Assembly (NCBI RefSeq): GCF_007954625.1
Contig: NZ_CP042420.1
Location: 814,501 to 878,500, forward strand
DNA length: 64,000 nucleotides
From: Leuconostoc lactis
GTDB lineage: Bacteria; Bacillota; Bacilli; Lactobacillales; Lactobacillaceae
Direction of reading: 5' to 3'
In this document: piece by piece, positions 94 through 49,508 of the stretch
How the letters are laid out: each line of letters begins with the position of its first letter
How positions within the stretch are numbered: the stretch's first letter is position 1
Translations under genes and position numbers: made by a program
Notes under the pieces: model-generated
Told to the model about the DNA's origin: nothing
The model's input: the letters and a program-made list of their open reading frames with translations, nothing else
Database searches by the model: none

Positions 94-129
94 GAAAGGA
101 TGTGCGGGTCAAGCGCACAGTTTAAACAA
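94..129 (+). promoter_or_regulatory. SD followed by a hairpin before the reductase start
   Basis: GAAAGGA at 94-100 is the only SD-like run. It is followed at once by TGTGCG (101-106) pairing with CGCACA (114-119), and then by 10 nt without an SD before ATG 130. If the 6-bp hairpin forms, the SD is brought close to the start. A 7-codon GTG mini-ORF (102-125) also ends 4 nt before the ATG. This is one of six such sites in the window. Confidence 0.5.
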
Positions 130-1155
130 ATGACACAAGAACCATACGATATTGCCATTATTGGCGGTGGCCCAGTGGGCATGTTTGCAGCTTTTTATGC
201 GAGCTTACGTGACATTAAGGTCGTTTTGATTGAGAGCTTGGCCATACTAGGCGGTCAAGTGATGTCCTTATATCCTGAAAAACGTATTCTTGATGTGGCG
301 GGCTTTCCAGGTGTGAAAGGGGCAGACTTTATTGCAGCCTTAGACCAGCAGTTAGGCATGTTTCCCGTCGATGTGAAGTTAAATACGACGGTGACCAATG
401 TTGAACAAGCAACCGACTTATTTCATTTGGCGACGAGTCAAGGGGAAACCATTCAAGCTAAAACGGTGATTATCACGACTGGAAAGGGTGCCTTTGAACC
501 ACGGAAAATGCAAGTTGATGGGGTAGAGGATCTGGTGGGTCAAGGCGTGCATTATTTTGTGACGCAACCACAAGTTTTTAAAAATCGCCACATTGCGATT
601 GCTGGCGGTGGGGATTCAGCAGTTGATATGGCGGTTATGTTCAATGATATCGCTGCCTCAACGCGTTTGATTCATCGTCGAGAAACTTTTCGTGCGATGG
701 AACAAAGTGTTAACGCGTTGAACGCCTCGGACGTTATCCAAGAAACACCCCAAAAAATCGTGGCAATTGAGAAGTTGGCAGATGGGCAATTACAGTTGAC
801 ATTAGCGCATGTGAAAGACGACCAAAAAAACCATGTTATCCTGGTTGATGATTTGATGATTAACTATGGTTTTATTTCGGAACGTCAAACGATCGAAAGT
901 TGGGCGATTCAACCCGCATTGTCTGGGAACGGTTTTGCGGTTGATCAGGAAATGCGGACTAATATTCCTGGTGTTTTTGCAATTGGGGATGCCAACCACT
1001 ATGCTGGGAAAGCTGATTTAATTGCGGTCGGGTTTGGTGAGGCACCAACCGCTGTCAATGCGGCTATTCGTTACTTTGATCCCCATCGTGGCGGCCCTGT
1101 ACATTCCAGTTCATTGACGTTAAAAACGGATGATTTAGGCCCTGAGCCAAAATAA
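130..1155 (+). CDS. Ferredoxin-NADP(+) reductase, thioredoxin reductase-like (YumC type)
   Basis: Cytoplasmic FAD/NADPH flavoprotein of 341 aa that would pass electrons between NADPH and ferredoxin or flavodoxin. An N-terminal FAD Rossmann motif GGGPVG (about residues 13-18) and a central NADPH-binding GGGDSAVD are visible. The C-terminal FAD motif IGDANHYAGK is followed by GFGEA. No CxxC redox pair of true thioredoxin reductase is present, which supports the YumC-type call. ATG 130 is chosen because homologues begin just before the YDIAIIGGGP strand. An in-frame ATG at 100 overlaps the SD and would add ten atypical residues. The gene is monocistronic, convergent with the nuclease gene, and shares its terminator. 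Confidence 0.88.
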   Translation: MTQEPYDIAIIGGGPVGMFAAFYASLRDIKVVLIESLAILGGQVMSLYPEKRILDVAGFPGVKGADFIAALDQQLGMFPVDVKLNTTVTNVEQATDLFHLATSQGETIQAKTVIITTGKGAFEPRKMQVDGVEDLVGQGVHYFVTQPQVFKNRHIAIAGGGDSAVDMAVMFNDIAASTRLIHRRETFRAMEQSVNALNASDVIQETPQKIVAIEKLADGQLQLTLAHVKDDQKNHVILVDDLMINYGFISERQTIESWAIQPALSGNGFAVDQEMRTNIPGVFAIGDANHYAGKADLIAVGFGEAPTAVNAAIRYFDPHRGGPVHSSSLTLKTDDLGPEPK

Positions 1156-1182
1156 AAAGCAGCCAAACTTGGCTACTTTTTA
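1152..1182. terminator. Bidirectional intrinsic terminator
   Basis: AGCCAA/TTGGCT hairpin flanked by A-rich and T-rich tracts on both sides (AAAAAGC and CTTTTTATTT). It lies between two convergent genes and can end both. Confidence 0.75.
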
Positions 1183-2061
1183 TTTCACATGATTTTGGAT
1201 CGTGACTTTACCAGTTTGATAATCAATCGTGATCCCAGGCTGGACGTTGAAAATCCAGTAATTTAAGTTTAACGTTTTTCCGTTGTCTTGCACAGATTTG
1301 GCCATATAATGGACACCACGCGCAATGCGTTCAGTGCCAACATACAAGGGGGTAACTTGCCCACGAATTTTGATGTTAGGGTGTTGATTGATGGCTTGAC
1401 GGATATCATCCTCAGGTACGAGTTGACCAGGATAAGCGTTTTGAACACGTGTCCCGGCAATCATATTTTCCGTCACCATGGTTGGCATTCCAAAAAACTG
1501 GTAGCCGACAAGATGAGACTTGTTCCATAACGCTTGTTTGCCTTTGCCAAGTTTGACGTTGGGATTGCGGTGGTAGCCACCGACCCATTTCGTGCCATCA
1601 AACCGATCATTGATGAACCAGCCAGAGGGTCTGACTTGATAGTCAATTGTGTCCGGTCGTGGCGTTACCTTATTAATAGCGTCACGACTGGCCACAAAGT
1701 TGGCTTGTTGGGTACGGCCAAGTGCGTCTAATGGTGATAGACTCAAACCATCCACTGGGCGTAGCTTAGAGCCATGTGAAGGAAAGGTTTCCTGCATCTC
1801 GGCGGGTGTAAAAGTGGCCTTATTTTGATTAATATGCACAAGGTCACCGTCTAGCGTGCCATCCCATTGCAAGTTCAGCAAGGCTTGGTTGTCGGGTGCT
1901 GAAACCGTCGCATATTTGGATTGTTGGGTTGTTGGAACTGGGTGTTGGGTTTGATTATTTTGCCAAAGATAAAAGCCGATCAGTAGTAATAAGATAACTG
2001 ATCCAATCAACTGTTGTTTAGGGGATGGGTTTTGTCGTCGCGTTGTGCGTTTTCTAGCCAT
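1180..2061 (-). CDS. DNA/RNA non-specific endonuclease, EndA/DNA-entry nuclease-like
   Basis: A 293-aa nuclease with an N-terminal membrane anchor (about residues 18-34, LIGSVILLLLIGFYLW), so the catalytic domain should face outward. The beta-beta-alpha metal nuclease core shows KSHLVGYQF, where His is the expected general base, followed by AGTRVQNAYPGQ with the metal-binding Asn region. This corresponds to the DRGH region of streptococcal EndA, which degrades one strand of incoming DNA during transformation. A role in DNA uptake or nutrient scavenging is inferred. The window also carries coiA. SD GGAGA lies 6 nt before the ATG. Confidence 0.8.
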   Translation of the reverse strand: MARKRTTRRQNPSPKQQLIGSVILLLLIGFYLWQNNQTQHPVPTTQQSKYATVSAPDNQALLNLQWDGTLDGDLVHINQNKATFTPAEMQETFPSHGSKLRPVDGLSLSPLDALGRTQQANFVASRDAINKVTPRPDTIDYQVRPSGWFINDRFDGTKWVGGYHRNPNVKLGKGKQALWNKSHLVGYQFFGMPTMVTENMIAGTRVQNAYPGQLVPEDDIRQAINQHPNIKIRGQVTPLYVGTERIARGVHYMAKSVQDNGKTLNLNYWIFNVQPGITIDYQTGKVTIQNHVK

Positions 2062-2142
2062 GATTATTCTCCATTTTGAAGCTCATAACAGCATATCATT
2101 TTTCTACAAAAATGAAAAACAGTGCGGCAAACATCAGCTGAA

Positions 2143-2877
2143 CTAAAAAGTCATGGCGTTTAAGAAGCGTTGAATCCGCGGATCATGTGCTTGGAAAAAA
2201 CCGGCTGACGGGCCATCATAACCTATTTTACCATCTTCCATGAAAATGATTTTATCGGCAACGGCTTGCGCAAATGCTAAATTATGGGTGACAATCACCA
2301 TGGATTTCTTTTGATCAGCGAGATCGCGTAAGACACGTAAGACTTGGGCTTCTAACTCAGGATCCAACGCACTGGTAGGTTCGTCAAGTAGCAGGTAATC
2401 GGGCTGCATAGCCAAGGCGCGGAGAATGGCGACGCGTTGTTGTTGCCCACCGGATAGTTGATACGGATAGCGGGGAGCGAGGGCGGCCATATCAAATTGG
2501 GTCAACAGGCTGTTGGCTTGTGCAGTCGCTTGATCGGCTGGGATGCCCTTGACTTTAATCGGCCCTTGGGTGAGGTTTTTAAGTACCGTTAAGTGGGTAA
2601 ATAAAGCTTTTTCTTGGAAAACCATGCCAAAATGCTGCCGAACGGCTAATAATTTTGGTGCGGTTAGTGGCTGACTCAAATCAAGCGTCTGTTCGCCAAT
2701 GGTTAAAGTACCAGACGTTGGTTGCGCTAATAGATTTAAAGTGCGCAGCAGCGTTGATTTACCCGAGCCAGATGGTCCAAGAATGACGGTTGTTTGTTCA
2801 GCGGGAAAAGTTGTGGATACTTGATCTAAGGCGCGGCGGTCGCCATATTGTTGGACTAAATTTTTGACAGTAATCAT
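2143..2877 (-). CDS. Polar amino acid ABC transporter ATP-binding protein
   Basis: A 244-aa ABC ATPase: Walker [10 protein letters not shown] near residue 34, Q-loop VFQEKALF, signature LSGGQQQR, Walker [12 protein letters not shown] and the H-loop IVTHN. It is most like the GlnQ/TcyC group of amino acid importers. Its ATG overlaps the permease stop by 4 nt (ATGA), so translation is probably coupled. It is the last gene of the binding protein-permease-ATPase operon that starts behind the attenuator at 4446-4637. Confidence 0.88.
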   Translation of the reverse strand: MITVKNLVQQYGDRRALDQVSTTFPAEQTTVILGPSGSGKSTLLRTLNLLAQPTSGTLTIGEQTLDLSQPLTAPKLLAVRQHFGMVFQEKALFTHLTVLKNLTQGPIKVKGIPADQATAQANSLLTQFDMAALAPRYPYQLSGGQQQRVAILRALAMQPDYLLLDEPTSALDPELEAQVLRVLRDLADQKKSMVIVTHNLAFAQAVADKIIFMEDGKIGYDGPSAGFFQAHDPRIQRFLNAMTF

Positions 2878-3572
2878 TGGGCAAACCTCGATGTATAGCG
2901 TTCTAACTGATGTTGGGCAATCGATAAAATGGTGGTGAAGACGGCATAAACAAATGCAGCCAAGATGTACATGGTCAGAATCTGATAATTTTCAGCAGCA
3001 ATTTGTTGACTGAGGTAAAACATTTCCACAATGGTAATCACGCTGGCGAGTGAGGTATCCTTCAACAAACCGATTAAAGCATTGCTTAACGGTGGGATTG
3101 AAATCCGCGCTGCTTGTGGCAAAATGACATCCGCAAAGACTTGCCAGCGATTCATCCCCAATGATTCAGCAGCTTCAATTTGGACACGAGGGACCGACGA
3201 AATCGCAGCACGGACACTTTCCGAGGCATAGGCCCCCGTATTAAGGGAGAAAACGGTAATCGCTGATAGCCAAGCGTTGGCAAAGAGTGTCACATGTGCG
3301 CTGGGGAGGCCGTAAAACACAATAAATAATTGCACAATCATGGGTGTTGATCGAAAAAGCCACACGTAAAAGCCGGCAATGACTTTAAGTCCCCGCAGTA
3401 GCAAGCGCGGAATCGGCGCTGCTGGCAACTTGGCTAAACGAATGAGCGCCGTGATGACGGCAAATACAAGTGCTAAAGCAAATGATATGACGGTTAGTGG
3501 TAACGTATAAATTAATGCGGCCCGAAAAAGTTGGGGCAGATATTGGCCGGCGAGGGGGATAAAATCAGACAT
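2874..3572 (-). CDS. Polar amino acid ABC transporter permease
   Basis: A 232-aa integral membrane protein of the HisM/GlnP permease family. There are about five hydrophobic segments and the family EAA loop (EAAESLGMNRWQVFADVILP), which docks on the ATPase. The SD AAAGGA is 10 nt before the ATG. The gene sits between its binding protein and ATPase, and the pattern resembles cystine (Tcy) importers. Substrate is inferred from family and context only. Confidence 0.86.
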   Translation of the reverse strand: MSDFIPLAGQYLPQLFRAALIYTLPLTVISFALALVFAVITALIRLAKLPAAPIPRLLLRGLKVIAGFYVWLFRSTPMIVQLFIVFYGLPSAHVTLFANAWLSAITVFSLNTGAYASESVRAAISSVPRVQIEAAESLGMNRWQVFADVILPQAARISIPPLSNALIGLLKDTSLASVITIVEMFYLSQQIAAENYQILTMYILAAFVYAVFTTILSIAQHQLERYTSRFAQ

Positions 3573-3634
3573 GGGTAGGGTTCCTTTTAGCGACGATTTG
3601 GTTCAATTAACGTTTGAGCCGTGAACCGGTTGGT

Positions 3635-4426
3635 TTATGGCTGGGTGAGATCAGTATTGAAGTATTTGCGTGACAATTTTTTGAGCGTGCCATCAGCTTG
3701 TAAGTCTTTCAGGGCATTATTAATGGCCTTTTGAAGGGCTGTATTTTGTTTGTTAAGCAGTGGTGCGGCTGGTGTTGCAGGACTTTCTTGGCTTAAATCA
3801 ACGGCTGTTGTGGCAGCGTCAGGATTGGCTTTTTTCCATGTGGCATAAGCGCCTAAGTCATTGAGTGCGCCGTCAGCGCGCTTGGTTGTCACTAAATTCA
3901 TGGCTTCGGTCATACCAGGGACAGCAACAATGTCAGCACCGCTTTTTTTAGCAAGGGCACCAAAGTTCGAAGTCGTTGATTGTGCCATCTTTTTACCTTT
4001 AAGATCAGCTAACGTGTTGAGATGGGGTTCATCGGTACGCTTGATGAGGACCGTTTTAGCATATAGATATGGTGTGGCAAATAAGTAAGCTTTTTGACGC
4101 TCTGGGGTGATACCGACATCGTTGAAAACGACATCATAACGTTTAGCACCAAGGCCTGCAATGAGCGAATCCCACTTTGTTTGGACGTATTTGGGTTTCA
4201 AACCGAGCTTTTTAGCAATGGCAGTTGATAAGTCCACTTCAAAGCCGGTTAATTGGCCGTTTTGACGGTAAGAAAATGGCGCAAAAGTCCCTTCTAATCC
4301 GATAGTTAGCGTGCCAGGGGTGATCGTTTGTGAGGCTTCCTTTGGCCGGGCTTGATGTTGGGTGAGGCCGATAGCTAAGCCGGCTACAACAACGAGGCTG
4401 GCGACGATGATGATGATTTTTTTCAT
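3635..4426 (-). CDS. Amino acid (probably cystine) ABC transporter substrate-binding protein
   Basis: A 263-aa periplasmic-binding-fold protein (SBP family 3) with TLTIGLEGTFAPFSYRQNG at the start of the mature domain, the FEVDL strand and the conserved RYDVVFNDVGITPER segment. The N-terminus is a hydrophobic segment (residues 3-21) without the lipobox Cys normal for Gram-positive binding proteins, so it is probably anchored by an uncleaved signal. The TcyA/FliY-like sequence suggests cystine. It is the first gene of its operon, with an SD AGGAGA 8 nt upstream of the ATG. Expression should be set by the leader-peptide attenuator upstream. Confidence 0.82.
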   Translation of the reverse strand: MKKIIIIVASLVVVAGLAIGLTQHQARPKEASQTITPGTLTIGLEGTFAPFSYRQNGQLTGFEVDLSTAIAKKLGLKPKYVQTKWDSLIAGLGAKRYDVVFNDVGITPERQKAYLFATPYLYAKTVLIKRTDEPHLNTLADLKGKKMAQSTTSNFGALAKKSGADIVAVPGMTEAMNLVTTKRADGALNDLGAYATWKKANPDAATTAVDLSQESPATPAAPLLNKQNTALQKAINNALKDLQADGTLKKLSRKYFNTDLTQP

Positions 4427-4445
4427 TTTGCTTCTCCTGTGGGCA

Positions 4446-4484
4446 AATAAAAAGCGCCAACTAGTGAAATACCTAGTTGGCGCT
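4446..4484 (-). terminator. Leader terminator (attenuator) of the cystine-type transporter operon
   Basis: On the minus strand, AGCGCCAACTAG (4484-4473) pairs perfectly with CTAGTTGGCGCT (4464-4453) and is followed by a T-rich tract. It lies between the operon promoter and the first gene. TGGCGCT at 4548-4542, inside the leader peptide gene, can pair with the 5' arm and would act as an antiterminator. Confidence 0.75.
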
Positions 4485-4533
4485 GCGTTAGTCCGTATGA
4501 TAGTTTGATCAAATGTATGTCAAAATACCGGTG

Positions 4534-4587
4534 CTAAACAAAGCGCCAGTGTGAGCAATATTCAGTTGCTACGATTAACTTTAACAT
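4534..4587 (-). CDS. Leader peptide of the transporter attenuator (17 aa)
   Basis: ATG at 4587 follows a strong SD, GGAGG at 4597-4593, with 5-nt spacing. It encodes MLKLIVATEYCSHWRFV and stops with TAG at 4536-4534. The Trp-Arg-Phe codons contain TGGCGCT, which can pair either with the downstream AGCACCGG or with the 5' arm of the leader terminator. The single Cys codon (4557-4555) sits just before this switch. This suggests that translation controls readthrough into a cystine-type importer. The regulatory logic (ON or OFF when stalled) cannot be settled by eye. Confidence 0.55.
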   Translation of the reverse strand: MLKLIVATEYCSHWRFV

Positions 4588-4608
4588 AACATCCTCCAAA
4601 ACAACCTC

Positions 4609-4637
4609 ATTCTAGCGATGATTCAAACACTTGTCAA
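4609..4637 (-). promoter_or_regulatory. Promoter of the cystine-type transporter operon
   Basis: On the minus strand, consensus TTGACA (4637-4632) and TAGAAT (4614-4609) are separated by exactly 17 nt. The predicted start near 4602 puts the leader-peptide SD only a few nucleotides from the 5' end. Confidence 0.75.
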
Positions 4638-4644
4638 TGTTTTT

Positions 4645-5307
4645 TTACTTTGTTAGTTCCCATTCGGCCTTAAACTGGTCTAGGAAGTCTAACATGAATT
4701 GATGCCGGGTTTCGGCTATTTGACGGGATGTATCGGTGTTGAGGTGCGCTTTAATGTGTAACAATTTTTCGTAAAAATGATTAATTGTTGTACCGTCAGT
4801 TTGTCGATACTGCGTCTTGTTATGAATCGTGCGTGGGGGAATTGTCGGATCGTAGAGCACACGGTTTTTCACAGCACCATAGGTGATGGTGCGGGCAATC
4901 GCAATGGCGCCGATGGCCTCAAGGCGGTCGGCATCTTGAACGATTTGGCCGTTGATGTCTAGTGGCGCTGCTTGACCAGCTAGTGTCTTTGACCATGACA
5001 TATTGTCAATAATATGAAAAATTTGTGTCTGAACGCGAGGTGATACTGCAATGGTGGTCAAAAAATCAGCCAGTGCGTTTTTGGCTGCGACCACTTCGGC
5101 TGGCGTGTCAAATAATTTATCATCGTAGACATCATGCAATAAAGCAGCGGCTTGTACGATAAACGGATCTGCAGTTGGTTCTTGAGCTAAAATTTTGTTG
5201 GCTAAGCCAACTACGCGGTCAATGTGGTCAACACTATGGCCGGATTGATCAGCAGCTAAGGCTTGCTGCATATAATGGGTAATTTGGGTGAGTTGCGACA
5301 TCGACAT
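4645..5307 (-). CDS. HD-domain phosphohydrolase (YpgQ-like)
   Basis: A 220-aa HD-superfamily metal-dependent hydrolase. The metal ligands are visible as HSVDH near residue 24, ALLHDVYDD (HD pair) near residue 69, and a later QDADRLEAIGA. B. subtilis YpgQ of the same type releases pyrophosphate from nucleotides, but the substrate here is not known. An AGGAGG SD stands 8 nt before the ATG. The gene is separate from its neighbours. Confidence 0.75.
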   Translation of the reverse strand: MSMSQLTQITHYMQQALAADQSGHSVDHIDRVVGLANKILAQEPTADPFIVQAAALLHDVYDDKLFDTPAEVVAAKNALADFLTTIAVSPRVQTQIFHIIDNMSWSKTLAGQAAPLDINGQIVQDADRLEAIGAIAIARTITYGAVKNRVLYDPTIPPRTIHNKTQYRQTDGTTINHFYEKLLHIKAHLNTDTSRQIAETRHQFMLDFLDQFKAEWELTK

Positions 5308-5519
5308 AAAATGGCCTCCTGTTTAACCGAACGGTAATTCTTTTTACTTTAGCATTTTGGCTAAGATTTGCATAGCTAGACCAGCGGCACAACCCGTTGG
5401 AAAACAACCTTAAAAAACTATGAAATGCGGTTGAAATTCGTTATAATTAGCATAGTAAAGACTGCCTCATACGGCCAAAGTCACGTGACAAAACACGCGA
5501 ATTAGAAAGAGAGACTCAT

Positions 5520-7643: not shown

Positions 7644-7731
7644 TTGGTCTGTACGATCGCTGGCCGCGTGCAATTTTGTGTCATGGCAGCCATTTTGAAG
7701 TGAAGCGCTCACATTAATGTACATTTATTCA

Positions 7732-7770
7732 CAACCACTCACGTGATTAGCAGGTGAGTGGTTGTTTTTT
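7732..7770 (+). terminator. Intrinsic terminator after metG
   Basis: Perfect 11-bp stem CAACCACTCAC (7732-7742) / GTGAGTGGTTG (7754-7764) followed by six T. It closes the metG transcript before the gap control region. Confidence 0.85.
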
Positions 7771-7822
7771 GATAAAGGATGTTAGCTATCGGTAACCGTA
7801 TTTTAGGCATAAATTTTGTGAT

Positions 7823-7860
7823 TTTATGAACGAATACAAGTGCTTCTATTCGCTCATAAA
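7823..7860. promoter_or_regulatory. 38-bp inverted repeat upstream of gap, probable operator
   Basis: TTTATGAACGAATA (7823-7836) and TATTCGCTCATAAA (7847-7860) form 14-bp arms with one mismatch around a 10-bp centre, CAAGTGCTTC. The right arm covers the -35 position of the gap promoter. The centre lies about 43 bp before the predicted start, typical for a dimeric regulator. It does not resemble the direct-repeat CggR operator of Bacillus. Confidence 0.6.
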
Positions 7861-7869
7861 CCAACTTTG

Positions 7870-7878
7870 TGCTATAAT
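7870..7878 (+). promoter_or_regulatory. Extended -10 promoter of gap
   Basis: TGCTATAAT combines the TGn extension with a consensus -10 (TATAAT 7873-7878). No good -35 is seen because that position is occupied by the inverted-repeat arm. Transcription would start near 7885. Confidence 0.7.
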
Positions 7879-7922
7879 ATTGGTGTTGACATAAGTCAAA
7901 AATTTTTGGAGGATCTAAACAC

Positions 7923-9966: not shown

Positions 9967-10044
9967 GAAAGGAAAAGCGCTCAAGTGAGGCCGTTATTGC
10001 AATCAGGTAATATTGGCAACGGATCGGAAGCGCACTGAAGACTT
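9967..10044 (+). promoter_or_regulatory. SD, extended hairpin and mini-ORF before the first fabZ-like gene
   Basis: GAAAGGAAAA (9967-9976) is the only clear SD in the leader. GCGCT (9977-9981) can pair with AGCGC (10029-10033), with inner CCGTT (9991-9995) / AACGG (10018-10022). 11 nt remain before ATG 10045. A GTG-started 17-codon ORF (9985-10038) ends 6 nt before the ATG. Either looping-out or translational coupling could serve the start. Confidence 0.45.
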
Positions 10045-10491
10045 ATGCCAGTTCTCACAACAACCGAAATTATGGCACTGATTCCGAATCGTTATCCAAT
10101 CTTGTATATGGATTACGTTGAAGAAATGGTGCCAGATGAATCGATTGTCGCTGTTAAAAATGTGACAATTAATGAACAGTTTTTCCAAGGACATTTCCCT
10201 GGTAATCCAGTGATGCCAGGCGTCTTGATTATTGAATCACTCGCTCAAGCAGCCTCGATCTTAATTTTGTCATCCCCACAATTTAAAGGGAAGACAGCCT
10301 ACATGACGGGTATCGATGATGCCAAGTTTAAAAAGATGGTTGTGCCGGGCGATGTGTTGAAGTTACATGTGACATTTGGTAAGTTACGCGCCAACATGGG
10401 TAGCGTATTGGTTGAAGCTAAAGTTGATGGGAAGACAGCAACCTCTGCCGAATTGATGTTTGTTGTTTCGCCAGATGAAAAAGATGAATGA
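10045..10491 (+). CDS. 3-hydroxyacyl-ACP dehydratase FabZ-like (possible FabN dehydratase/isomerase)
   Basis: A 148-aa hot-dog fold dehydratase with the catalytic His in GHFPGNP and the Glu in IIESLAQ. It removes water from 3-hydroxyacyl-ACP in the elongation cycle. A second FabZ lies later in the operon (16801). This copy occupies the place where pneumococcus has fabM, and no fabM is seen, so it may be the FabN-type enzyme that also isomerises trans-2 to cis-3 for unsaturated fatty acids. That function is inferred from position. FabZ and FabN cannot be told apart by eye. First gene of the FabT-controlled operon. Confidence 0.82.
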   Translation: MPVLTTTEIMALIPNRYPILYMDYVEEMVPDESIVAVKNVTINEQFFQGHFPGNPVMPGVLIIESLAQAASILILSSPQFKGKTAYMTGIDDAKFKKMVVPGDVLKLHVTFGKLRANMGSVLVEAKVDGKTATSAELMFVVSPDEKDE

Positions 10492-16754: not shown

Positions 16755-16800
16755 AGGAGGAAAGGCATACAGTAATTGGTGCTGTATGTTTAATAGACAC
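16755..16800 (+). promoter_or_regulatory. SD followed by a hairpin before fabZ
   Basis: A very strong SD (AGGAGGAAAGG, 16755-16765) is followed directly by CATACAG (16766-16772) pairing with CTGTATG (16782-16788), then 12 nt without an SD before ATG 16801. An in-frame ATG at 16786 lies inside the stem. Same architecture as at 94, 9967, 18695, 41555 and 47663. Confidence 0.55.
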
Positions 16801-17232
16801 ATGAGCGTACTAAATACCCAACAAATTATGGACATCATCCCGCATCGTTATCCGATGTTGATGTTGGATACGGTTGAAGAATTGGTGCCGGGTGAACGTG
16901 CCGTGGCTTACAAGAATATTTCAATCAATGAAGAAATTTTCCAAGGTCATTTTCCAGGGAATCCAACATTTCCAGGTGCGTTAACCGTTGAAGCCTTGGC
17001 CCAAACGGGTGCCGTTGCGCTCTTGTCGATGCCGGAGTATAAAGGGAAAACAGCTTACTTTGGTGGTATCAAGAAGGCGCGTTATCGTCAAATGGTACGC
17101 CCTGGTGATCGTTTGCGTCTGGAAGTCACAATTGATCGTTTGCGTGGGCCAATTGGGACAGGTAAAGGCATTGTGTGGATTGGTGACAAGAAAGCAACAA
17201 CTGCTGAATTGACATTCATCATTGGAGATTAA
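16801..17232 (+). CDS. fabZ: 3-hydroxyacyl-ACP dehydratase FabZ
   Basis: A 143-aa hot-dog dehydratase, the standard FabZ of LAB fab operons lying between accB and accC. Catalytic His is in GHFPGNP and Glu in TVEALAQTG. The start MSVLNTQQIM matches the family N-terminus, so the upstream ATG at 16786 is not preferred. The SD is remote and separated by a hairpin. Confidence 0.92.
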   Translation: MSVLNTQQIMDIIPHRYPMLMLDTVEELVPGERAVAYKNISINEEIFQGHFPGNPTFPGALTVEALAQTGAVALLSMPEYKGKTAYFGGIKKARYRQMVRPGDRLRLEVTIDRLRGPIGTGKGIVWIGDKKATTAELTFIIGD

Positions 17233-18694: not shown

Positions 18695-18747
18695 AGGAGG
18701 CATGTGTCCCATCTTGTGAGTTTGAGGTGTTGGGGCACGGGATAAAG
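18695..18747 (+). promoter_or_regulatory. SD followed by a hairpin before accD
   Basis: AGGAGG (18695-18700), then GTGTCCC (18704-18710) pairing with GGGGCAC (18732-18738), then 9 nt before ATG 18748. A GTG mini-ORF of 13 codons (18704-18745) ends 2 nt before the ATG. Confidence 0.5.
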
Positions 18748-19587
18748 ATGGATTTATACGATAATCAAAAATCAACCGCTAAAATTAAGCGGGATGCATC
18801 AGTCAATGAACGCATCCCAGATGGGCTTTTCTTAGCTTGCCCTTATTGCGGTGTTCAAATGTATAATAAACAATTGGGGCCGTTTCGTGTGTGTGCGCAC
18901 TGTGGCTATGGTTTCCGTTTACAAGCGCAAGAACGCGTCGACTTGCTCACGCAATCATTTGAAGAAATGGATGCCGACATTGAAATGACAACACCGGAAT
19001 TTCCTGGTTATGCGGATAAACTAGCGCGTGCGAAATCACAAACAGGTTTAGGCGAATCTGTATTGACCGGGGTGGCCACGATTGAAAATGAAAAAGTGGC
19101 ACTAGGGGTCATGGATTCTTATTTCATGATGGGGTCATTGGGATCAATGACTGGTGAAAAAATCACCCGTTTGTTTGAATACGCGACGGATAAAAAGTTA
19201 CCAGTGGTATTATTCACGGCCTCTGGTGGCGCGCGCATGCAAGAAGGCATTAATTCTTTGATGCAAATGGCCAAAGTGTCAGCGGCAGTGGCGGCACATC
19301 AAGAAGCAGGCCTACTTTATTTGGTCGTACTGACAGATCCAACAACGGGTGGGGTAACGGCTAGTTTCGCCATGCAAGGAGATATTACGTTAGCTGAACC
19401 GCATGCTTTAGTTGGCTTTGCTGGTGCGCGCGTGATTGAATCAACAATTCATGAGAAACTACCAAAGGACTTTCAGCGTGTCGAAACGTTATTAGAAAAT
19501 GGCTTTGTTGATCAAATCGTGCCCCGACCTGAACTTGGGCCAATCATTGCTAAGTTGGTGAGGTTACATCGGGTGTCGGAGGTATAA
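18748..19587 (+). CDS. accD: Acetyl-CoA carboxylase, carboxyltransferase beta subunit
   Basis: A 279-aa subunit that, with AccA, moves CO2 from biotin to acetyl-CoA. The N-terminal zinc ribbon is complete (CPYCG then CAHCG), followed by the crotonase-like carboxyltransferase core with SGGARMQEG and GGVTASFAMQGD. ATG 18748 matches the usual start a short distance before the zinc ribbon. Confidence 0.94.
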   Translation: MDLYDNQKSTAKIKRDASVNERIPDGLFLACPYCGVQMYNKQLGPFRVCAHCGYGFRLQAQERVDLLTQSFEEMDADIEMTTPEFPGYADKLARAKSQTGLGESVLTGVATIENEKVALGVMDSYFMMGSLGSMTGEKITRLFEYATDKKLPVVLFTASGGARMQEGINSLMQMAKVSAAVAAHQEAGLLYLVVLTDPTTGGVTASFAMQGDITLAEPHALVGFAGARVIESTIHEKLPKDFQRVETLLENGFVDQIVPRPELGPIIAKLVRLHRVSEV

Positions 19588-41422: not shown

Positions 41423-41440
41423 TTTTCTGAATAAGTTGTA

Positions 41441-41486
41441 AAAAACGAACATAAAATGAAAATAAATTATATTGTTCGGGTATAAT
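41441..41486 (+). promoter_or_regulatory. Inverted PurBox pair and -10 of bmp
   Basis: A degenerate direct box (41441-41453, core ACGAAC) and an inverted box (41471-41483, ATTGTTCGGGTAT, one mismatch) are 17 nt apart, the spacing known for PurR box pairs. The second overlaps the -10 TATAAT (41481-41486). Suggests purine control of the nucleoside-binding gene. Confidence 0.5.
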
Positions 41487-41554
41487 TTTTGTTTTTAATC
41501 GTTTTTTCATGGTTGTATCAGATAAAAGTTGGATAATAAAGTTATCAAATATTT

Positions 41555-41596
41555 AGAGGAGATGTGTGGCTGTCTTCAGTCACACGTGGTAATATT
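41555..41596 (+). promoter_or_regulatory. SD followed by a hairpin before bmp
   Basis: AGAGGAGA (41555-41562), then GTGTGGCTG (41564-41572) pairing with CAGTCACAC (41577-41585), 9 bp with one G-U and loop TCTT, then 11 nt to ATG 41597. A GTG mini-ORF encoding MAVFSHTW (41566-41592) ends 4 nt before the ATG. Confidence 0.55.
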
Positions 41597-42658
41597 ATGC
41601 AACGTTCAGCACAAATTGGTATTGGTATTCTTGCAGTTGCCGTTATTGGTGGCGGTATCTATGCAGCAACACGTGGTGGTTCAACGACTTCAGGTAAGGA
41701 TAACTACACAGCTGCGCTGGTAACAGATGGCGGTGGTGTGGATGACCGTTCGTTCAACCAATCAGCTTGGAACGGTTTGAAGGCTTACGGTAAAGCCAAC
41801 AACTTGAAGCAAGGCACAACCGGTTATAACTATTTCCAAAGTTCGGATTCTTCTGATATTAAGACAAATTTGCAAACAGCCGTTAAAGGTGGGTATAAGT
41901 TAGTTTATGGTGTTGGTTTTGCTGCAGCACCAGCCATGAATACAGTGGCTAAGGCCAACCCTAAGACAAGCTTTGCTATTATTGATGCTGTTGTGCCAGA
42001 TAAAAACGTGGCCTCATTGATGTTTAAGTCTGAACAATCATCATATTTGGCTGGTGTGGCTGCAGCAAAGCAGACAAAGTCTAACACGGTTGGTTTCATC
42101 GGTGGTGTGCACGGTGATATCATCGACACATTTGAAGCCGGCTTCATTGCTGGGGTCAAGGCCACAAATCCAGATATTAAGATTATGACGCAATATGCTG
42201 ACTCATTTACAGATGCAGCCAAGGGTAAAACAATTGCCGCTTCAATGATTGCTGGTGGCGCTGACGTTATCTTCCAAGCTGCTGGTGGTACTGGGTCAGG
42301 TGTCTTTGCGGAAGCAAAGGCAACCGACCAAAAGTTGGCAGCTGACTCAGACAAGAAGGTTTGGGTCATCGGTGTTGATATGGATCAAAAGCGCGATGGG
42401 GATTATACAGACAAGGACAACAAGAAGTCAAACTTCACGTTGGTATCTGCTGTGAAGCGCGTTGATAATGCGGTTGAATCATTGACTAACCAAGGACGTG
42501 AAGGTAAGTTCCCTGGTGGTAAGACAATCACTTATGGTTTGAAGGAAAAGGGTGTTGGCTTGGCCAAGGATTCTGCTTCACCAGAAGTTTGGTCAGCAGT
42601 TGAAGCCGCACAAAAGAAGATTATTGCTGGTGACATTAAGGTACCCGTTCATCCTTAA
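41597..42658 (+). CDS. BMP-family nucleoside-binding protein (PnrA/BmpA-like)
   Basis: A 353-aa solute-binding protein for an ABC nucleoside importer. Family core DGGGVDDRSFNQSAWNGLK, then GGVHGDIIDTFEAGF and the nucleoside-pocket region AAGGTGSGVFAEA. The N-terminus is a hydrophobic segment (residues 6-22) without a lipobox Cys, so it is membrane-anchored or secreted rather than lipidated. Codon use is strongly biased, so expression should be high. The importer permease/ATPase genes are not in the window. Confidence 0.88.
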   Translation: MQRSAQIGIGILAVAVIGGGIYAATRGGSTTSGKDNYTAALVTDGGGVDDRSFNQSAWNGLKAYGKANNLKQGTTGYNYFQSSDSSDIKTNLQTAVKGGYKLVYGVGFAAAPAMNTVAKANPKTSFAIIDAVVPDKNVASLMFKSEQSSYLAGVAAAKQTKSNTVGFIGGVHGDIIDTFEAGFIAGVKATNPDIKIMTQYADSFTDAAKGKTIAASMIAGGADVIFQAAGGTGSGVFAEAKATDQKLAADSDKKVWVIGVDMDQKRDGDYTDKDNKKSNFTLVSAVKRVDNAVESLTNQGREGKFPGGKTITYGLKEKGVGLAKDSASPEVWSAVEAAQKKIIAGDIKVPVHP

Positions 42659-42675
42659 TTTAGAATAGACAAACA

Positions 42676-42705
42676 AAAGCTCAAAGCATTTGCTTGAGCT
42701 TTTTA
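42676..42705 (+). terminator. Terminator of bmp
   Basis: AAGCTCAA / TTGAGCTT with extra GC/GC pairs and a T tract. Confidence 0.8.
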
Positions 42706-42819
42706 TTTGCCAGTTGAGGGCGATATCTCGGCATGGCTTATAACGAACGTGATAATCATGTCATATAAGCTCACATAACATCACTGGACACAGGTTGGTT
42801 TTGATAGAATAAACTTATT

Positions 42820-44268: not shown

Positions 44269-45017
44269 GTGATGCGCAAACAAAAGTAAAAGTCCATGTT
44301 GAAAATGTTAACAAGTCATACGGTGATAACCATGTCTTGCGAGATATTTCATTGGACGTGTCTGAAAATGAAGTGGTGGTCATGATTGGACCTTCAGGAT
44401 CAGGTAAGTCAACTTTCTTACGGATGTTGAATCAGTTAGAAACACCAGATAACGGCACGATCATTGTTGACGGCTTTAATATTTCTGATAAGGCAACGGA
44501 CATTAACAAAGTGCGTGAAAATATTGGGATGGTTTTCCAAAACTTTAACCTCTTTAATAATTACACAGTACTTGAAAATATCATGTTGGCACCGGTTGAA
44601 TTAGGCAAGTTAGACAAGGCAGCTGCCGAGAAGAAAGCCCGTGAATTACTAGAAACAGTTGGCTTGAGTGATAAAGCTGATATGTCAGTTAATTCATTAT
44701 CTGGTGGTCAAAAGCAACGTATTGCCATTGCCCGTGCGTTGGCCATGTCACCAGATATTATGTTGTTTGATGAACCAACATCAGCCTTGGATCCAGAAAT
44801 GGTCGGGGATGTGTTGAACGTCATGAAAGATCTAGCGGATTCTGGGATGACGATGATTATCGTGACACACGAAATGGGCTTTGCAAAACAAGTCGCCGAT
44901 CGTGTGGTTTTCTTTGAATCAGGTAAGATTCAAGAATCTGGCACACCAGAAGAAGTCTTTAATGCACCTAAAAATGCACGTTTGCAAGAATTTTTGAGCA
45001 AAGTCATGCAAGCCTAA
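44265..45017 (+). CDS. Amino acid ABC transporter ATP-binding protein
   Basis: A 250-aa GlnQ-type ATPase. Walker [11 protein letters not shown]-loop VFQNFNLF, signature LSGGQKQR, Walker [14 protein letters not shown]-loop IIVTHEM. SD AAGAGG. It overlaps fusion 1 (ATGA). It is the only ATPase between the two fusion genes, so it probably drives both. Confidence 0.92.
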
Positions 45018-45063
45018 TGGGTTTGATAGACAGTCTCACAATTGAACGTGCAGCAAACGATTG

Positions 45064-45092
45064 AAAAAGCCGACCGTTTGGTCGACTTTTTT
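45064..45092 (+). terminator. Terminator between glnQ-type gene and fusion 2
   Basis: AAAAG-C-CGACC pairs with GGTCG-A-CTTTT around GTTT, then T residues. It separates fusion 2 from the first two genes and may lower its transcription. No clear promoter is visible between them. Confidence 0.65.
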
Positions 45093-45114
45093 GTAATGTA
45101 GGAAGAGAATTTTA

Positions 45115-46560
45115 ATGATCATGTTAAAAAGATACATTTTAGGGCTGGCAACATTAGTCATGTTTTTTCTGCTAACGCCGATCGCGTCAGCTGATAAACC
45201 ACACTATACCATTACGACGGATGCAACTTATGCACCGTTTACTTTTCAAGATAAAAATAATCGTTATGTCGGCATTGAACAAGACATGATGAAAGCCATT
45301 GCCGAGCGGGAAGGGTTTACTTATACTATGAAGCCAATGAGCTTCAATTCTGCGGCGCAACTGGTTTCAAACGGACAAGCTGACGGGATTATTGCCGGTA
45401 TGTCTATTACACCAGAACGGCGTCAAGTGTATGACTTTTCAACCCCTTATTACAAAACGGGGGTGGCTTGGATTGTTAAAAAAGGCAGTAAAATTAAATC
45501 ACTGGCGGATTTAAAAGGGCAAACAGTGGCCTTAAAGACAGGGACAGCAGCGTCTGAATATGGGCTATCGCTACAGAAAAAATATGGTTTCCAGGTCAAA
45601 TATTTTAACGATACCGATACCATGTATAATGATGTGGCAGTTGGCAATTCGGCGGCCACATTTGAAGATATGCCAGTTATTCAATACGCGATTAAAAATG
45701 GTATGGCCTTAAAGGTCATGAATCCAGATCAACCTGGTAACGCAGGGTCTTATGGTTTCGCAGTTGAAAAAGGCAAGAACAAAGCACTTTTAGCGGCTTT
45801 TAATCGTGGTTTTGCTGCCATCAAAAAAGATGGCACGTACGATAAAATTGTGGCGAAGTATTTGGGTGCCCGGCAAGCAACGTTCTCTGGCACTAAGCGT
45901 GATAACAGTACTGTGCTTGGGATTTTGCGGACCAATAAGACAGCATTGCTCAACGGTTTGTGGCAGACGATTGTGTTGACCGTGATTGCGATTATTTTTG
46001 CCTCAATCTGGGGTATTTTACTCGGTATCATGGGCGTGAGTCAATTTGGCTGGGTGCGGGGAATTGCCACCACAATTATTTACATTTTCCGTGGCCTACC
46101 ATTGATGGTCTTAGCGTTCTTTATTTATATTGGGTTGCCTGGTTTAACTGGGGTGAAAATACCGGCCTTTACAGCGGGGATCATCACGCTGATTCTAAAT
46201 GAAGGCGCTTATACAGGAGCGTTTGTCCGTGGTGGCTTTGAAGCCGTTAACCGTGGGCAAATGGAAGCTGCGCGTTCGTTGGGTTTGTCTTATAGTCAGG
46301 CCATGCGTCGGGTCGTGATGCCACAAGGTCTCCGTATTATGGTGCCAAGTTTCATCAACCAATTCATTATTACCTTAAAAGATACGTCGATTCTATCAGC
46401 CATTGGGTTGCTCGAATTAACGCAGACAGGTTCTTTGATTGTGGCGCGTAATTCACAAGGTTTTCGTGTCTGGGCAATCATTGGGGTCATGTATCTCATT
46501 TTAATCACCTTGTTGACTTGGTTTAGTCGCTGGGTTGAAAAACGCATGACTGTAAAATAA
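45115..46560 (+). CDS. Amino acid ABC transporter, substrate-binding/permease fusion 2
   Basis: A 481-aa paralogue of the 42820 gene with the same layout (signal, YTITTDATYAPFTFQDKN, permease with [20 protein letters not shown]). The two are close relatives over their whole length but differ in the binding domain (for example GNAGSYGFAV against [10 protein letters not shown]), so a tandem duplication with changed substrate preference is likely. SD AGGAAGAGA. No ATPase of its own. Confidence 0.88.
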   Translation: MIMLKRYILGLATLVMFFLLTPIASADKPHYTITTDATYAPFTFQDKNNRYVGIEQDMMKAIAEREGFTYTMKPMSFNSAAQLVSNGQADGIIAGMSITPERRQVYDFSTPYYKTGVAWIVKKGSKIKSLADLKGQTVALKTGTAASEYGLSLQKKYGFQVKYFNDTDTMYNDVAVGNSAATFEDMPVIQYAIKNGMALKVMNPDQPGNAGSYGFAVEKGKNKALLAAFNRGFAAIKKDGTYDKIVAKYLGARQATFSGTKRDNSTVLGILRTNKTALLNGLWQTIVLTVIAIIFASIWGILLGIMGVSQFGWVRGIATTIIYIFRGLPLMVLAFFIYIGLPGLTGVKIPAFTAGIITLILNEGAYTGAFVRGGFEAVNRGQMEAARSLGLSYSQAMRRVVMPQGLRIMVPSFINQFIITLKDTSILSAIGLLELTQTGSLIVARNSQGFRVWAIIGVMYLILITLLTWFSRWVEKRMTVK

Positions 46561-46565
46561 ACATC

Positions 46566-46608
46566 AAAAACACCTCCTATTCGTATGATGAATAGGAGGT
46601 GTTTTTTT
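46566..46608 (+). terminator. Terminator whose 3' arm contains the coiA SD
   Basis: AAAAACACCTCCTATTC (46566-46582) pairs perfectly with GAATAGGAGGTGTTTTT (46590-46606), loop GTATGAT, T tract to 46608. The SD AGGAGGTG (46594-46601) lies entirely in the stem, 7 nt before the coiA ATG. The hairpin both ends the transporter mRNA and hides the coiA ribosome site. Confidence 0.8.
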
Positions 46609-47637
46609 ATGTTTATCGCACAAGACAAGCAAGGCACGTATGTGCAAGCTAACGTCGCTGGGACAAACGATGAGTTTTACTGTCCTGGTTGTTTGGCACC
46701 GGTCTACTTACGTCAGGGAGAGATTAAGCAACCACATTTTGCACATCGCGTGGGTGCGCAGTGCCACACTTTCTCAGACAATGAAACACCGCAACATTTG
46801 GCTGGGAAATTACAATTGGCAACCTACTGTCAAAAATTCGGGCAAGTCACTTTGGAAGCGGTTATTCCGGCTATTAACCAACGACCTGACATTTTAATCA
46901 CCCGTGCAGATCAGCGTATTACCATTGAGTACCAGTGTAGTCCGATCTCCCAGCAACGTTTAGATGAGCGGAATGCGGGCTACCGCCAACAACACATTAC
47001 CGTGATTTGGATTTTAGGCGCCACTTATTATCAGGCTAAAATGGCGCAACGCACGATTGTTAAATTTTTAGCCAATCAGCAGTTGTGCTTCTATTTACCT
47101 GATACGCAAAAATTTTACCATCGCGCCCATTTTGAAAAACCAGACTTTATTCGGGTTAATTACAGTGAAATTGTCAGCACGCAATTGTTGACAACAGTAC
47201 CAAAGCACAAACAACGCAGATTAGATGTGGTGCAACAAATTTACAAACTGCAACAACTCATCGCGCAAAAACGGGTGGATCAGCGCTTGATTGCCTATCT
47301 TTATTTGCAACAACGCTTATTATTGCAGGCACCGCTTTGGATTCATTTGGGGCAAACCTTTGGCCTGACAATCAGCAATTGGCAGTGGCGATTACAGAGT
47401 TTGTTAGTGTTAGAAAAAATTGGTGTTGGTCATGTTTTGCATCAGCAGGTGATGTTGGCCAAACTCAAGCCCTATGTTCTGGGAAATGCCACTTTTCAAC
47501 AAGAACAAGTGATGGCGCTCATGCAAGAAATGGTGGCGCAGCATTTTATTGTGCAGCGTGGGGCTTATTTCTTAGTTGTTGAATTACCGGTGTGGTATGG
47601 GTCGTTGCGACAAAAATTAGGTCAAGTGAGAAAATAG
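46609..47637 (+). CDS. coiA: Competence protein CoiA
   Basis: A 342-aa protein required for transformation in streptococci. It has an N-terminal zinc-ribbon-like region (FYCPGCLAPVYLR, FAHRVGAQCHTF). The nuclease-like core is VTLEAVIPAINQRPDILI with ITIEYQCSPIS (D...E-x-Q), followed by a helical C-terminus. CoiA is thought to promote recombination of incoming DNA. ATG 46609 is set by the AGGAGGTG SD. It precedes pepF, as coiA does in streptococci. Confidence 0.85.
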   Translation: MFIAQDKQGTYVQANVAGTNDEFYCPGCLAPVYLRQGEIKQPHFAHRVGAQCHTFSDNETPQHLAGKLQLATYCQKFGQVTLEAVIPAINQRPDILITRADQRITIEYQCSPISQQRLDERNAGYRQQHITVIWILGATYYQAKMAQRTIVKFLANQQLCFYLPDTQKFYHRAHFEKPDFIRVNYSEIVSTQLLTTVPKHKQRRLDVVQQIYKLQQLIAQKRVDQRLIAYLYLQQRLLLQAPLWIHLGQTFGLTISNWQWRLQSLLVLEKIGVGHVLHQQVMLAKLKPYVLGNATFQQEQVMALMQEMVAQHFIVQRGAYFLVVELPVWYGSLRQKLGQVRK

Positions 47638-47662
47638 TGATAAAATAAAGTATGATATTTTA

Positions 47663-47717
47663 AGAAGGGAATGTTAGTGTCCATCGATCATTTGAGCGAC
47701 ACTGACGCGTAATAATA
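47663..47717 (+). promoter_or_regulatory. SD followed by a hairpin before pepF
   Basis: AGAAGGGA (47663-47670), then GTTAGTGTC (47673-47681) pairing with GACACTGAC (47698-47706), 9 bp with one G-U, then 11 nt (no SD) to ATG 47718. A mini-ORF (ATG 47671 or GTG 47677) ends with TAA 47710-47712, 5 nt before the ATG. Confidence 0.55.
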
Positions 47718-49508
47718 ATGGCACAACTACAACGCGATGAAGTACCTGAAGAGTTAACTTGGGATTTGACCTCCATTTTTGCAACCGATGACGAGTGGGA
47801 AACAGCTTACGATGCTGTGCATCAAGGGGCACATGCTCTGAAGCAATTTGTGGGGCATGTTGGTGATTCAGCCCAAACGTTGCAAACAGCACTGGAAGCT
47901 GATCTTGATTTGGAACGTCAATTGGAAAAAGTCTACGTCTATGCGCACCAAATTTATGATCAAGATACGACGAATCAAAAATATGCCGCTTTTAATAGCC
48001 GTGCGCAAGCACTTTGGTCTGAAGTAAGTGAAGCAACAGCTTACTTCCAACCCGAAGTGCTTAATATTCCAGAAGAAACGTTGACAAACTATTTGAAGAC
48101 GGCAGGGTTACAACCTTACCAACATTTATTTGACCAAATTCTGGCGCAAAAGCCTTACACATTGCCAGCAGAACAGGAAGCACTTCTGGCCGGAGCTGGG
48201 GATATTTTTAATGCTTCAGAAAACACTTTTGGTGCGTTAGATAATTCCGACATGACGTTTGGGGATGTCCATACTGAAACGGGTGAAGTGGTGCCATTGA
48301 CAAATGGCCTTTACAGTCTGTTGTTGGAATCTAAGTCACGTGAATTGCGCCAAGAAGCGTTTGAAACATTGTACGATAGTTACATTGCCTTGCAAAACAC
48401 TTTCGCGTCAACGTTATCGTCACATGTCAAAGGTCATAATTATTTAGCTAAAGTGCGTCACTATCGCTCAGCACGGGAAGCAGCCATTCTACCACACAGC
48501 CTACCAACATCAGTGTTTGAAACGTTGCGTGAAACGGTTGATGCCAATTTGCCACTGTTGCATCGTTTTGTATCACTCCGTAAGCAAGTTTTGGGCGTTG
48601 ACGATATTCACTCATATGACCTCTACGTACCGTTAGTCGATGAGATTGATTTTGATGTCACGTATGACAAAGCCAAAGACATTGTGTTAGCCGCTTTGGC
48701 ACCATTAGGACCAGATTATATTGCCGTGGTTAAAAAGGCCTTTGACGAACGCTGGATTGATGTGGTGGAAAATAAGGGTAAGCGTACTGGTGCTTATTCG
48801 AGCGGCACATATGACACGAACCCATTTATTTTGTTAAATTGGCAAAATAACTTAAATAACGTTTACACTTTGGCCCATGAAATGGGGCACTCGGTGCATT
48901 CTTATTTGACCCGTCAAGCACAACCTTATCATTATGGTGATTACCCAATTTTCCTAGCTGAAATTGCATCAACAACCAATGAAAGCCTACTCACGGATTA
49001 TTTGTTAAAGACAAATGATGATCCAAAATTCCAAGCCTATGTGTTGAATCAATATCTTGATGGCTTTAAGGGCACGGTGTTCCGACAGACCCAATTTGCG
49101 GAATTTGAAGATTGGATTCATGAACAAAGTGCAGCTGGGGTGGCGTTAACAGCTGACGCGATGAGTACGTACTATGCGGCATTGAATCAAAAGTACTATG
49201 GCCCAGATCTCTTCCCAGATGAAGAAATCGCGTATGAATGGGCGCGTATTCCACATTTCTACTACAACTATTATGTCTATCAATATGCCACTGGTGAAGC
49301 CGCAGCGACGACTTTGGCTGATCGTATCTTGAATCAGAATGGGGCAGAAGCGTATAAAGACTACTTAAAGGCCGGTGCCTCAGACTATCCATTAGCCGTT
49401 ATCGGCCAAGCAGGGGTTGATATGACGCAAGCGGATTATTTGAAGGAAGCCTTTGGCGTGTTTGAAAAGCGTCTCGATCAGTTGACAGATTTGTTAGTTC
49501 ACAAGTAA
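47718..49508 (+). CDS. pepF: Oligoendopeptidase F
   Basis: A 596-aa cytoplasmic zinc metallopeptidase (M3B) that trims oligopeptides. The zinc motif HEMGH is at 387-391 (LAHEMGHSVHSYL), with the third ligand Glu in EIASTTNESLL. MAQLQRDEVPEELTWDL is the normal N-terminus, which fixes the ATG despite the missing local SD. It follows coiA by 80 nt. Confidence 0.94.
   Translation: MAQLQRDEVPEELTWDLTSIFATDDEWETAYDAVHQGAHALKQFVGHVGDSAQTLQTALEADLDLERQLEKVYVYAHQIYDQDTTNQKYAAFNSRAQALWSEVSEATAYFQPEVLNIPEETLTNYLKTAGLQPYQHLFDQILAQKPYTLPAEQEALLAGAGDIFNASENTFGALDNSDMTFGDVHTETGEVVPLTNGLYSLLLESKSRELRQEAFETLYDSYIALQNTFASTLSSHVKGHNYLAKVRHYRSAREAAILPHSLPTSVFETLRETVDANLPLLHRFVSLRKQVLGVDDIHSYDLYVPLVDEIDFDVTYDKAKDIVLAALAPLGPDYIAVVKKAFDERWIDVVENKGKRTGAYSSGTYDTNPFILLNWQNNLNNVYTLAHEMGHSVHSYLTRQAQPYHYGDYPIFLAEIASTTNESLLTDYLLKTNDDPKFQAYVLNQYLDGFKGTVFRQTQFAEFEDWIHEQSAAGVALTADAMSTYYAALNQKYYGPDLFPDEEIAYEWARIPHFYYNYYVYQYATGEAAATTLADRILNQNGAEAYKDYLKAGASDYPLAVIGQAGVDMTQADYLKEAFGVFEKRLDQLTDLLVHK

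Follow-up and report, generated by a model that had tools for sequence, protein, structure and literature searches.

Six genes in a 64,000-nucleotide (nt) window of Leuconostoc DNA (the window being the whole stretch analysed) have a Shine-Dalgarno sequence (SD) that is separated from the start codon by a folded segment of the leader. This observation is real, conserved and more general than a preliminary description of the six leaders could see. Comparative sequence data lead us to regard them as most probably ribosome-binding sites with a folded (looped-out) spacer, which would follow the principle known from genes 38 and 25 of phage T4 and would form a lineage-wide class of chromosomal genes. 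By sequence, the host is a Leuconostoc near L. lactis: the window's PepF shares 99% identity with that of L. lactis KCTC 3528 and 92% with that of L. holzapfelii. G000 denotes the host's own genome; the assignments of G011 to L. lactis and of G007 to L. holzapfelii come from matching PepF loci.

Every SD, stem, loop, gap and start of the six leaders was reproduced at the positions originally reported (Table 1). Five of the six folds are stem-loops as described; that of the first fabZ is a 57-nt multi-helix domain, and the 5-bp stem quoted for it is merely the base of this domain. The reported geometry (0–3 nt from SD to stem, 9–12 nt from stem to ATG) applies to the six, while the wider class is looser: 22 strong cases from the own genome have gaps of 0–5 nt and 7–15 nt, the scan having allowed –1 to 5 and 7 to 15. 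Along the chain, SD and ATG of these 22 cases are 26–52 nt apart, compared with a canonical mode of 6; with the hairpin removed, the spacing becomes 7–13 nt in 18 of them and 7–20 nt in all. The fold begins past the SD, which is not sequestered in structure. No usable SD lies by the AUG, its absence being required in both the motif and the fold scans; the earlier statement to this effect holds generally and is softer for accD, a partial case among the six, with a weak GGGA-type stretch directly before its ATG.

Table 1. Parts of the six leaders with folded spacers, and the genes behind them, in window coordinates.
Feature	Positions	Strand	Remarks
SD of thioredoxin-reductase-like gene	94..100	+	GAAAGGA; complementary to 16S 3′ end ...GGATCACCTCCTTTCT
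Reductase spacer hairpin	101..119	+	6-bp stem TGTGCG/CGCACA, 7-nt loop; retained in L144 and L145
Thioredoxin-reductase-like gene	130..1155	+	Hairpin-to-ATG 10 nt; NCBIfam score under model cut-off
First fabZ, SD region	9967..9976	+	GAAAGGAAAA
First fabZ folded spacer domain, 57 nt	9977..10033	+	Base stem GCGCT/AGCGC; spacer free energy (dG) –20.1 kcal/mol
fabZ, first copy	10045..10491	+	Fold-to-ATG 11 nt; NCBIfam FabZ
Second fabZ SD	16755..16765	+	AGGAGGAAAGG
Second fabZ spacer hairpin	16766..16788	+	CATACAG(TA)/(TG)CTGTATG, at most 9 bp; stem altered in orthologues L115–L122 and L125
fabZ, second copy	16801..17232	+	Hairpin-to-ATG 12 nt; NCBIfam FabZ
accD SD	18695..18700	+	AGGAGG
accD spacer hairpin	18704..18738	+	GTGTCCC(A)/(T)GGGGCAC
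accD	18748..19587	+	Hairpin-to-ATG 9 nt; NCBIfam AccD, slightly under cut-off
bmp-family gene SD	41555..41562	+	AGAGGAGA
bmp spacer hairpin	41564..41585	+	GTGTGGCTG/CAGTCACAC, 4-nt loop
bmp-family substrate-binding protein	41597..42658	+	Hairpin-to-ATG 11 nt; NCBIfam BMP-type, under cut-off
pepF SD	47663..47670	+	AGAAGGGA
pepF spacer hairpin	47673..47706	+	GTTAGTGTC/GACACTGAC, 16-nt loop
pepF	47718..49508	+	Hairpin-to-ATG 11 nt; NCBIfam PepF

The own genome was sampled over 844 kb (the window and 39 blocks of 20 kb), in which a simple codon-usage caller yielded 765 genes, starts near stretch ends being dropped. For ordinary SDs in this genome, the distance from the last core G to the start is most often 6 nt. 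A strict motif, consisting of a strong SD, a stem of at least 7 bp with a loop of at most 40, 7–15 nt and an ATG without adjacent SD, was present in 22 of the 765 genes; 20 dinucleotide shuffles gave 2.9 on average and never more than 5. Relaxing the motif (stem of at least 6 bp, loop of at most 30) gave 34 genes (shuffled mean 6.8, maximum 9).

Later scans were confined to ATG starts, 633 for the 765 genes called in G000: 460 have an adjacent SD, 79 a distal strong SD only and 94 neither. The fold test asked that the minimum free energy structure of the SD-to-ATG spacer be one closed domain beginning at most 7 nt past the SD and ending 7–16 nt before the ATG. It was passed by 34 of the 79 distal-SD starts, ffh, parC and lysS among them; 20 shuffles averaged 6.45 passes and reached at most 10. 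These 34 starts and the 34 genes of the looser motif are two different, overlapping lists, and the former includes at least one likely false positive, at window position 55728, with a T-box-like leader and a terminator-like stem. After subtraction of the shuffled mean, about 4% of own-genome ATG starts are of the folded-spacer kind. Both counts bear out the preliminary proposal of a recurrent class in excess of shuffled leaders. The leader at 55600–55728 (+ strand) looks T-box-like by eye, with a long stem and then a T run; Rfam is silent there at gathering threshold, and we take the gene behind it to be a pheS look-alike.

Position relative to the start was sharply defined. When the starts of four Leuconostoc genomes were pooled (1250 in all), SD-coupled hairpins whose stems have at least 8 bp gave 60 counts, of which 50 end 6–17 nt before the start; for 995 control starts the figure was 5 of 23. 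One start may give more than one count, and the control set includes sister genus g39, whose pepF leader is folded.

The strict motif was found in 10 of 383 genes of the gelidum-type genome G005 (1.8 expected from shuffles), 5/189 in G002 (0.6), 5/169 in G009 (0.6), 2/110 in a pseudomesenteroides-type set (0.55) and 1/178 in g39 (0.55); a control of other Firmicutes gave 9/1108 vs 6.1 (maximum 11). Starts passing the fold test numbered 19 of 35 in G005 (shuffled mean 1.55, maximum 3), 7 of 16 in G002 (1.30, maximum 3), 3 of 10 in G018 (0.20, maximum 1), 2 of 10 in the pseudomesenteroides-type set (0.35, maximum 1), 7 of 16 in the Fructobacillus-type genus g2 (1.40, maximum 3) and 3 of 12 in g39 (1.05, maximum 3).

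Leaders of orthologues were collected for ten genes from up to 19 Leuconostoc genomes, giving 166 rows; for parC, 10 of 18 matched genomes were read. These rows leave out accD of G004 (partial), reductase L152 and L153 (without start), the second fabZ of G004 and G013, the first fabZ of seven genomes including the own (no locus cut), and G004 for ffh, the rluA-family gene and secA. A hairpin was scored in 99 rows and a canonical SD in 36. The other 31 fit neither group; read one by one, many of these turned out to be longer or imperfect folds, and in accD L098, L099 and L104 no SD was seen within the 75 nt read. L124, scored among the 12 second-fabZ hairpin rows, has a plain SD by its ATG as well and probably does not belong to the hairpin leaders.

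The strongest test rests on the 139 rows outside the lactis group, which were picked by gene only, the fold of a row itself playing no part in its selection. Forty of them have an adjacent SD, 5 lack a strong SD, and 94 have a distal SD only, corresponding to 83 distinct leaders. The fold test was passed by 78 of these 83, whereas 50 shuffles averaged 5.74 passes and reached at most 11. By gene, the passes are 10/14 for pepF, 7/7 for bmp, 4/4 for accD, 8/8 and 5/5 for the second and first fabZ, 3/3 for the reductase, 12/12 for ffh, 13/14 for the rluA-family gene, 12/12 for secA and 4/4 for parC.

While the fold is kept, its letters are replaced, as expected from the selection on structure suggested by the preliminary description. 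The clearest turnover is seen at bmp: hairpins occur in 13 of 19 species and comprise 10 distinct stems, and the remaining six species, all of mesenteroides type, use a plain SD at the same ATG. The accD hairpin reads CATGCCGAT/ATTGGCATG in L096 and is replaced by a 13-bp stem in L100. A stem was found by scan in 14 of 18 secA rows, and three of the other four, when folded, keep a stem of 4+4 bp with one mismatch. The fold of ffh has enlarged to about 54–68 nt in G005, G006 and G008, and the unpaired tail is still 12–14 nt. The folded spacer shared by both fabZ paralogues, which had been pointed out earlier, exists in the own genome and several relatives; mesenteroides-type species have plain SDs instead, at the first fabZ in 6/6 and at the second in 5/5 with full leader (partly by eye), and it is thus not a fixed property of the fabZ family. 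The plain SD of the second fabZ stands at the same ATG in L126–L129 and, by eye, in L123 and L124.

Consensus folds, built without picking stems, revealed the covariation that the preliminary description had proposed to look for. In an RNAalifold consensus of 11 bmp leaders, each of the eight pairs is changed on both sides and still paired in at least one sequence, with one broken or gapped cell in total; in a repeat with a separate MAFFT alignment of 10 sequences, the 8 of 8 result recurred and 80 of 80 cells were paired, vs 18 and 11 when slid by one position. Both-sides changes were likewise found in 6 of 9 pairs of the second fabZ (77/90 cells paired, vs 22 and 14 slid by one) and in 5 of 6 pairs of secA (86/90, vs 3 and 18). 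When arms were swapped between species over 7 positions, own arms paired at 94–100% and foreign arms at 39–56% for pepF, bmp, accD, the second fabZ, ffh, the rluA-family gene and parC (permutation p 0.0002 to 0.015), and at 98 vs 76% for secA (p 0.0064); with 1 and 2 distinct stems, respectively, the first fabZ and the reductase offered too few for this test.

When the own genome is set beside that of L. holzapfelii, 7 of 9 genes have less conservation in the hairpin than in either the upstream flank or the tail. For pepF (L001 vs L003) the upstream flank including the SD is identical at 28 of 28 positions, while the hairpin aligns at 22 of 40; at the other end, the secA hairpin is identical at 25 of 27. 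Judged from these sequences, near-complete replacement of the pepF stem may have come about by template switching or fresh palindrome formation and not by double substitutions one step at a time. The flanks of accD and of the rluA-family gene have diverged as well, and wholesale replacement of the stem is less clear there than in pepF.

Several results count against a looped-out spacer as the function of these folds. The arm-swap test and the orthologue fold z-scores are partly circular because each stem was picked for complementarity, so weight is placed on the consensus folds and on the orthologues picked by gene; moreover, an earlier arm-swap run gave p 0.34 for the first fabZ, whose three distinct stems included two taken from the paralogue. 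RNAalifold returned no consensus structure for the pepF, rluA-family and ffh leaders, probably because MAFFT could not align them in register. Counts of the strict motif are small in mesenteroides-type genomes (2/181 vs 0.75 in G018) and reach only 3/205 vs 1.10 in g2, and G009 passes the fold test in only 5 of 16 cases vs 1.30 (maximum 2). The effective spacing has a median of 11.5, about 5 nt above the canonical mode. The class is a small minority and plain SDs serve its orthologues, which means that initiation can in principle do without the fold. For these leaders we found no translation, toeprint or structure-probing data. Finally, other Firmicutes pass the fold test in 12 of 71 cases vs 5.35 (maximum 9), and general leader composition may therefore explain part of the excess. 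This mild control excess is what speaks for chance or composition as an account of the whole; the excess in lactis-like and gelidum-type genomes is 5 to 12 fold, and, together with the result for the 83 orthologous leaders, it leaves such an account with practically no probability. Chance is already refuted for the class, and single members may be due to it.

If the true start lay beside the SD, as the beginning of a longer protein or of a short leader peptide, the hairpin would be coding sequence. Some ATG, GTG or TTG does lie at canonical distance from the SD in 33 of the 99 hairpin leaders, and in the reductase an in-frame ATG at 100 overlaps the SD. Yet 63 of the 99 have an in-frame stop between SD and ATG, and in none of the 99 is a start codon at canonical distance both in frame and open, so upstream in-frame starts were rejected. 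In-frame stops at 10036 and 47703 rule out an upstream start for the first fabZ and for pepF, respectively. Plain-SD orthologues, in addition, use the same ATG. Initiation beside the SD, which the preliminary description had named as a point to check, is accordingly a highly improbable explanation; an out-of-frame leader peptide could still exist at single genes.

The hairpins might alternatively serve mRNA stability or processing and lie near the start incidentally. The bmp, pepF and reductase leaders do come, by eye, soon after promoter-like sequence. However, hairpin position is tied to SD and ATG alike, and in 12 of the 34 looser-motif genes the SD lies at most 35 nt from an upstream same-strand gene, so that these are probably not transcript 5′ ends and the element is not confined to such ends. 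We consider this role very unlikely.

A third possibility is a regulatory switch, on when the spacer is folded and off when heat, a helicase, a small RNA or a protein opens it. The anatomy would permit this, as opening the stem shifts the SD out of range, and many stems, by eye, start TGTG-like and finish CACA-like. Against it, the TGTG tendency is weak in the 22 strong cases, and the hairpins have no stem or loop sequence in common. Twenty proteins (the window's six and 14 sampled cases) were run against NCBIfam. Several folded-spacer genes are of the housekeeping type; those sampled include ffh, parC, secA, lysS, purR, uppP, tgt, aroC, nusG, a RluA-family pseudouridine synthase and thymidine kinase, with no family for the L049 protein, and the genes so named share neither a pathway nor a function. 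No Rfam family reached threshold in the window's leaders, the window giving just transfer-messenger RNA (tmRNA) and one tRNA at gathering score. Overall, we find a switch improbable, albeit the least so of the alternatives.

Other candidates were rejected. Differing stems are incompatible with a shared sequence element or mobile repeat. A TGTG...CACA DNA operator does not fit the half-to-half distance, which follows the loop (3–23 nt in the 22 strong cases), or the weak TGTG bias. Intrinsic terminators would need a T run after the stem, and none follows: the tails of the strong cases contain 101 A, 65 T, 34 C and 29 G. The anti-SD is unaltered, the 16S 3′ end reading ...GGATCACCTCCTTTCT at both copies in the sample. 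Finally, a known RNA family, riboswitch or thermometer was discarded because the window's leaders have no curated match and the SD lies outside the structure.

The lineage distribution of the folded spacer was followed at pepF. A fold between SD and ATG is present in 27 of 29 leaders (some near-identical) of Leuconostoc, Fructobacillus and two sister genera. All 19 Leuconostoc rows of the orthologue set are folded, with a stem of merely 4 bp in L014–L016; in L003 the minimum-energy structure pairs part of the tail too, and in g39 (L296, L302) the hairpin was read by eye within the computed structure. The two exceptions, L. fallax L176 and L300 of the Fructobacillus-type G058, have an adjacent SD, as do three outgroup leaders (two Oenococcus, one Ligilactobacillus) and 65 of 68 pepF leaders of other genera (L178–L246 without L. 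citreum L182). In a PepF tree the folded-leader genera group together, with Oenococcus and Ligilactobacillus outside; some forks are open, and L. fallax sits on a long branch.

Leader hairpins near ribosome-binding sites are well known from SD-sequestering riboswitches and RNA thermometers, in which the SD is inside the structure, whereas in the Leuconostoc leaders it is outside and free. In E. coli thrS, the structures lie upstream of the SD and not between SD and AUG. The ribosome is reported to accommodate a long hairpin of the thrS split ribosome-binding site without unfolding it, and excerpts of the same source treat the thrS structures as standby-site modules, unlike the Leuconostoc spacers (PMC3936740). 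The closest likeness is to T4 genes 38 and 25, where, according to excerpts of a review that covers the work on split or accommodated ribosome-binding sites (Nivinskas 1999; Malys and Nivinskas 2009), a structure between SD and AUG cuts the effective spacing from 22 to 5 nt and from 27 to 11 nt, respectively, and initiation falls when the structure is destabilised; the gene 25 structure occurs in close T-even phages and not in more distant relatives (PMC3014915). As far as these excerpts go, the two systems have in common a fold between SD and AUG that shortens the effective spacing; they differ in that the T4 cases are single phage genes, whereas Leuconostoc has tens of chromosomal genes per genome (extrapolated from the sample) with stem sequences that turn over. 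The preliminary description held that a recurrent class in one bacterium was undescribed, and among the open-access papers that our searches listed we likewise found no account of SD–AUG hairpins as a genome-wide class or in Leuconostoc, which is not proof of absence.

In the looped-out spacer that we favour, the 30S subunit would pair with a strong SD located 26–52 nt from the start codon along the chain, and further in some orthologues. The hairpin would remain folded outside the mRNA path, bringing SD and AUG to an effective distance of mostly 7–13 nt. The unpaired stretch of about 7–15 nt from the last pair to the AUG would span the path between the P site and the mRNA exit; the hairpin would sit immediately outside, and the SD helix further on. 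Selection would retain the pairing and both junctions, and not the letters or length of the stem-loop. The fold is presumed to be present on the ribosome and required for initiation. It may have arisen as a tolerated insertion that later became necessary, a history that would explain sequence drift under fixed geometry.

More tentatively, Leuconostoc and its sister genera might possess a second standing architecture of ribosome-binding sites, in which several percent of genes, including ffh, secA, parC, lysS, nusG and fatty-acid synthesis genes, are translated only if a sequence-free hairpin folds correctly as an obligatory on-signal; we think this possible and rather doubtful. Were it true, protein output would respond to anything that opens short hairpins, and the 30S subunit would routinely dock over a helix. 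Through the folded-spacer class, a textbook curiosity of T4 would become a class of genomic scale that brings natural replicates: one and the same gene has a plain spacer in one subclade and a folded one in another, and many unrelated stems preserve the geometry. How the initiating ribosome measures the distance from SD to AUG thereby becomes directly testable, and a folded-spacer rule could enter start-site predictors and ribosome-binding-site calculators.

The reductase matches L144 (G011, by inference L. lactis) and L145 (G007, by inference L. holzapfelii) hold internal stops, one TGA and two TAA, respectively, and the gene may thus be decaying in this subclade. Seemingly the same gene, with a protein start MAIKI and presumably Asp23-like, has folded spacers at L055:618 (+ strand, own genome) and at L280:19561 (– strand, Fructobacillus-type G115). 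Outside the Leuconostoc lineage, a lone leader with an SD, an 11-bp hairpin, 12 nt and an ATG occurs in Pontibacillus yanchengensis (L209:16378, + strand). Contigs of Pontibacillus and Aquibacillus (L194, L196, L209, L213) carry a repeated leader, TCCCTTC...GAAGGGA, with an SD-like 3′ arm 9–10 nt before the ATG, which looks like an SD-sequestering regulatory leader.

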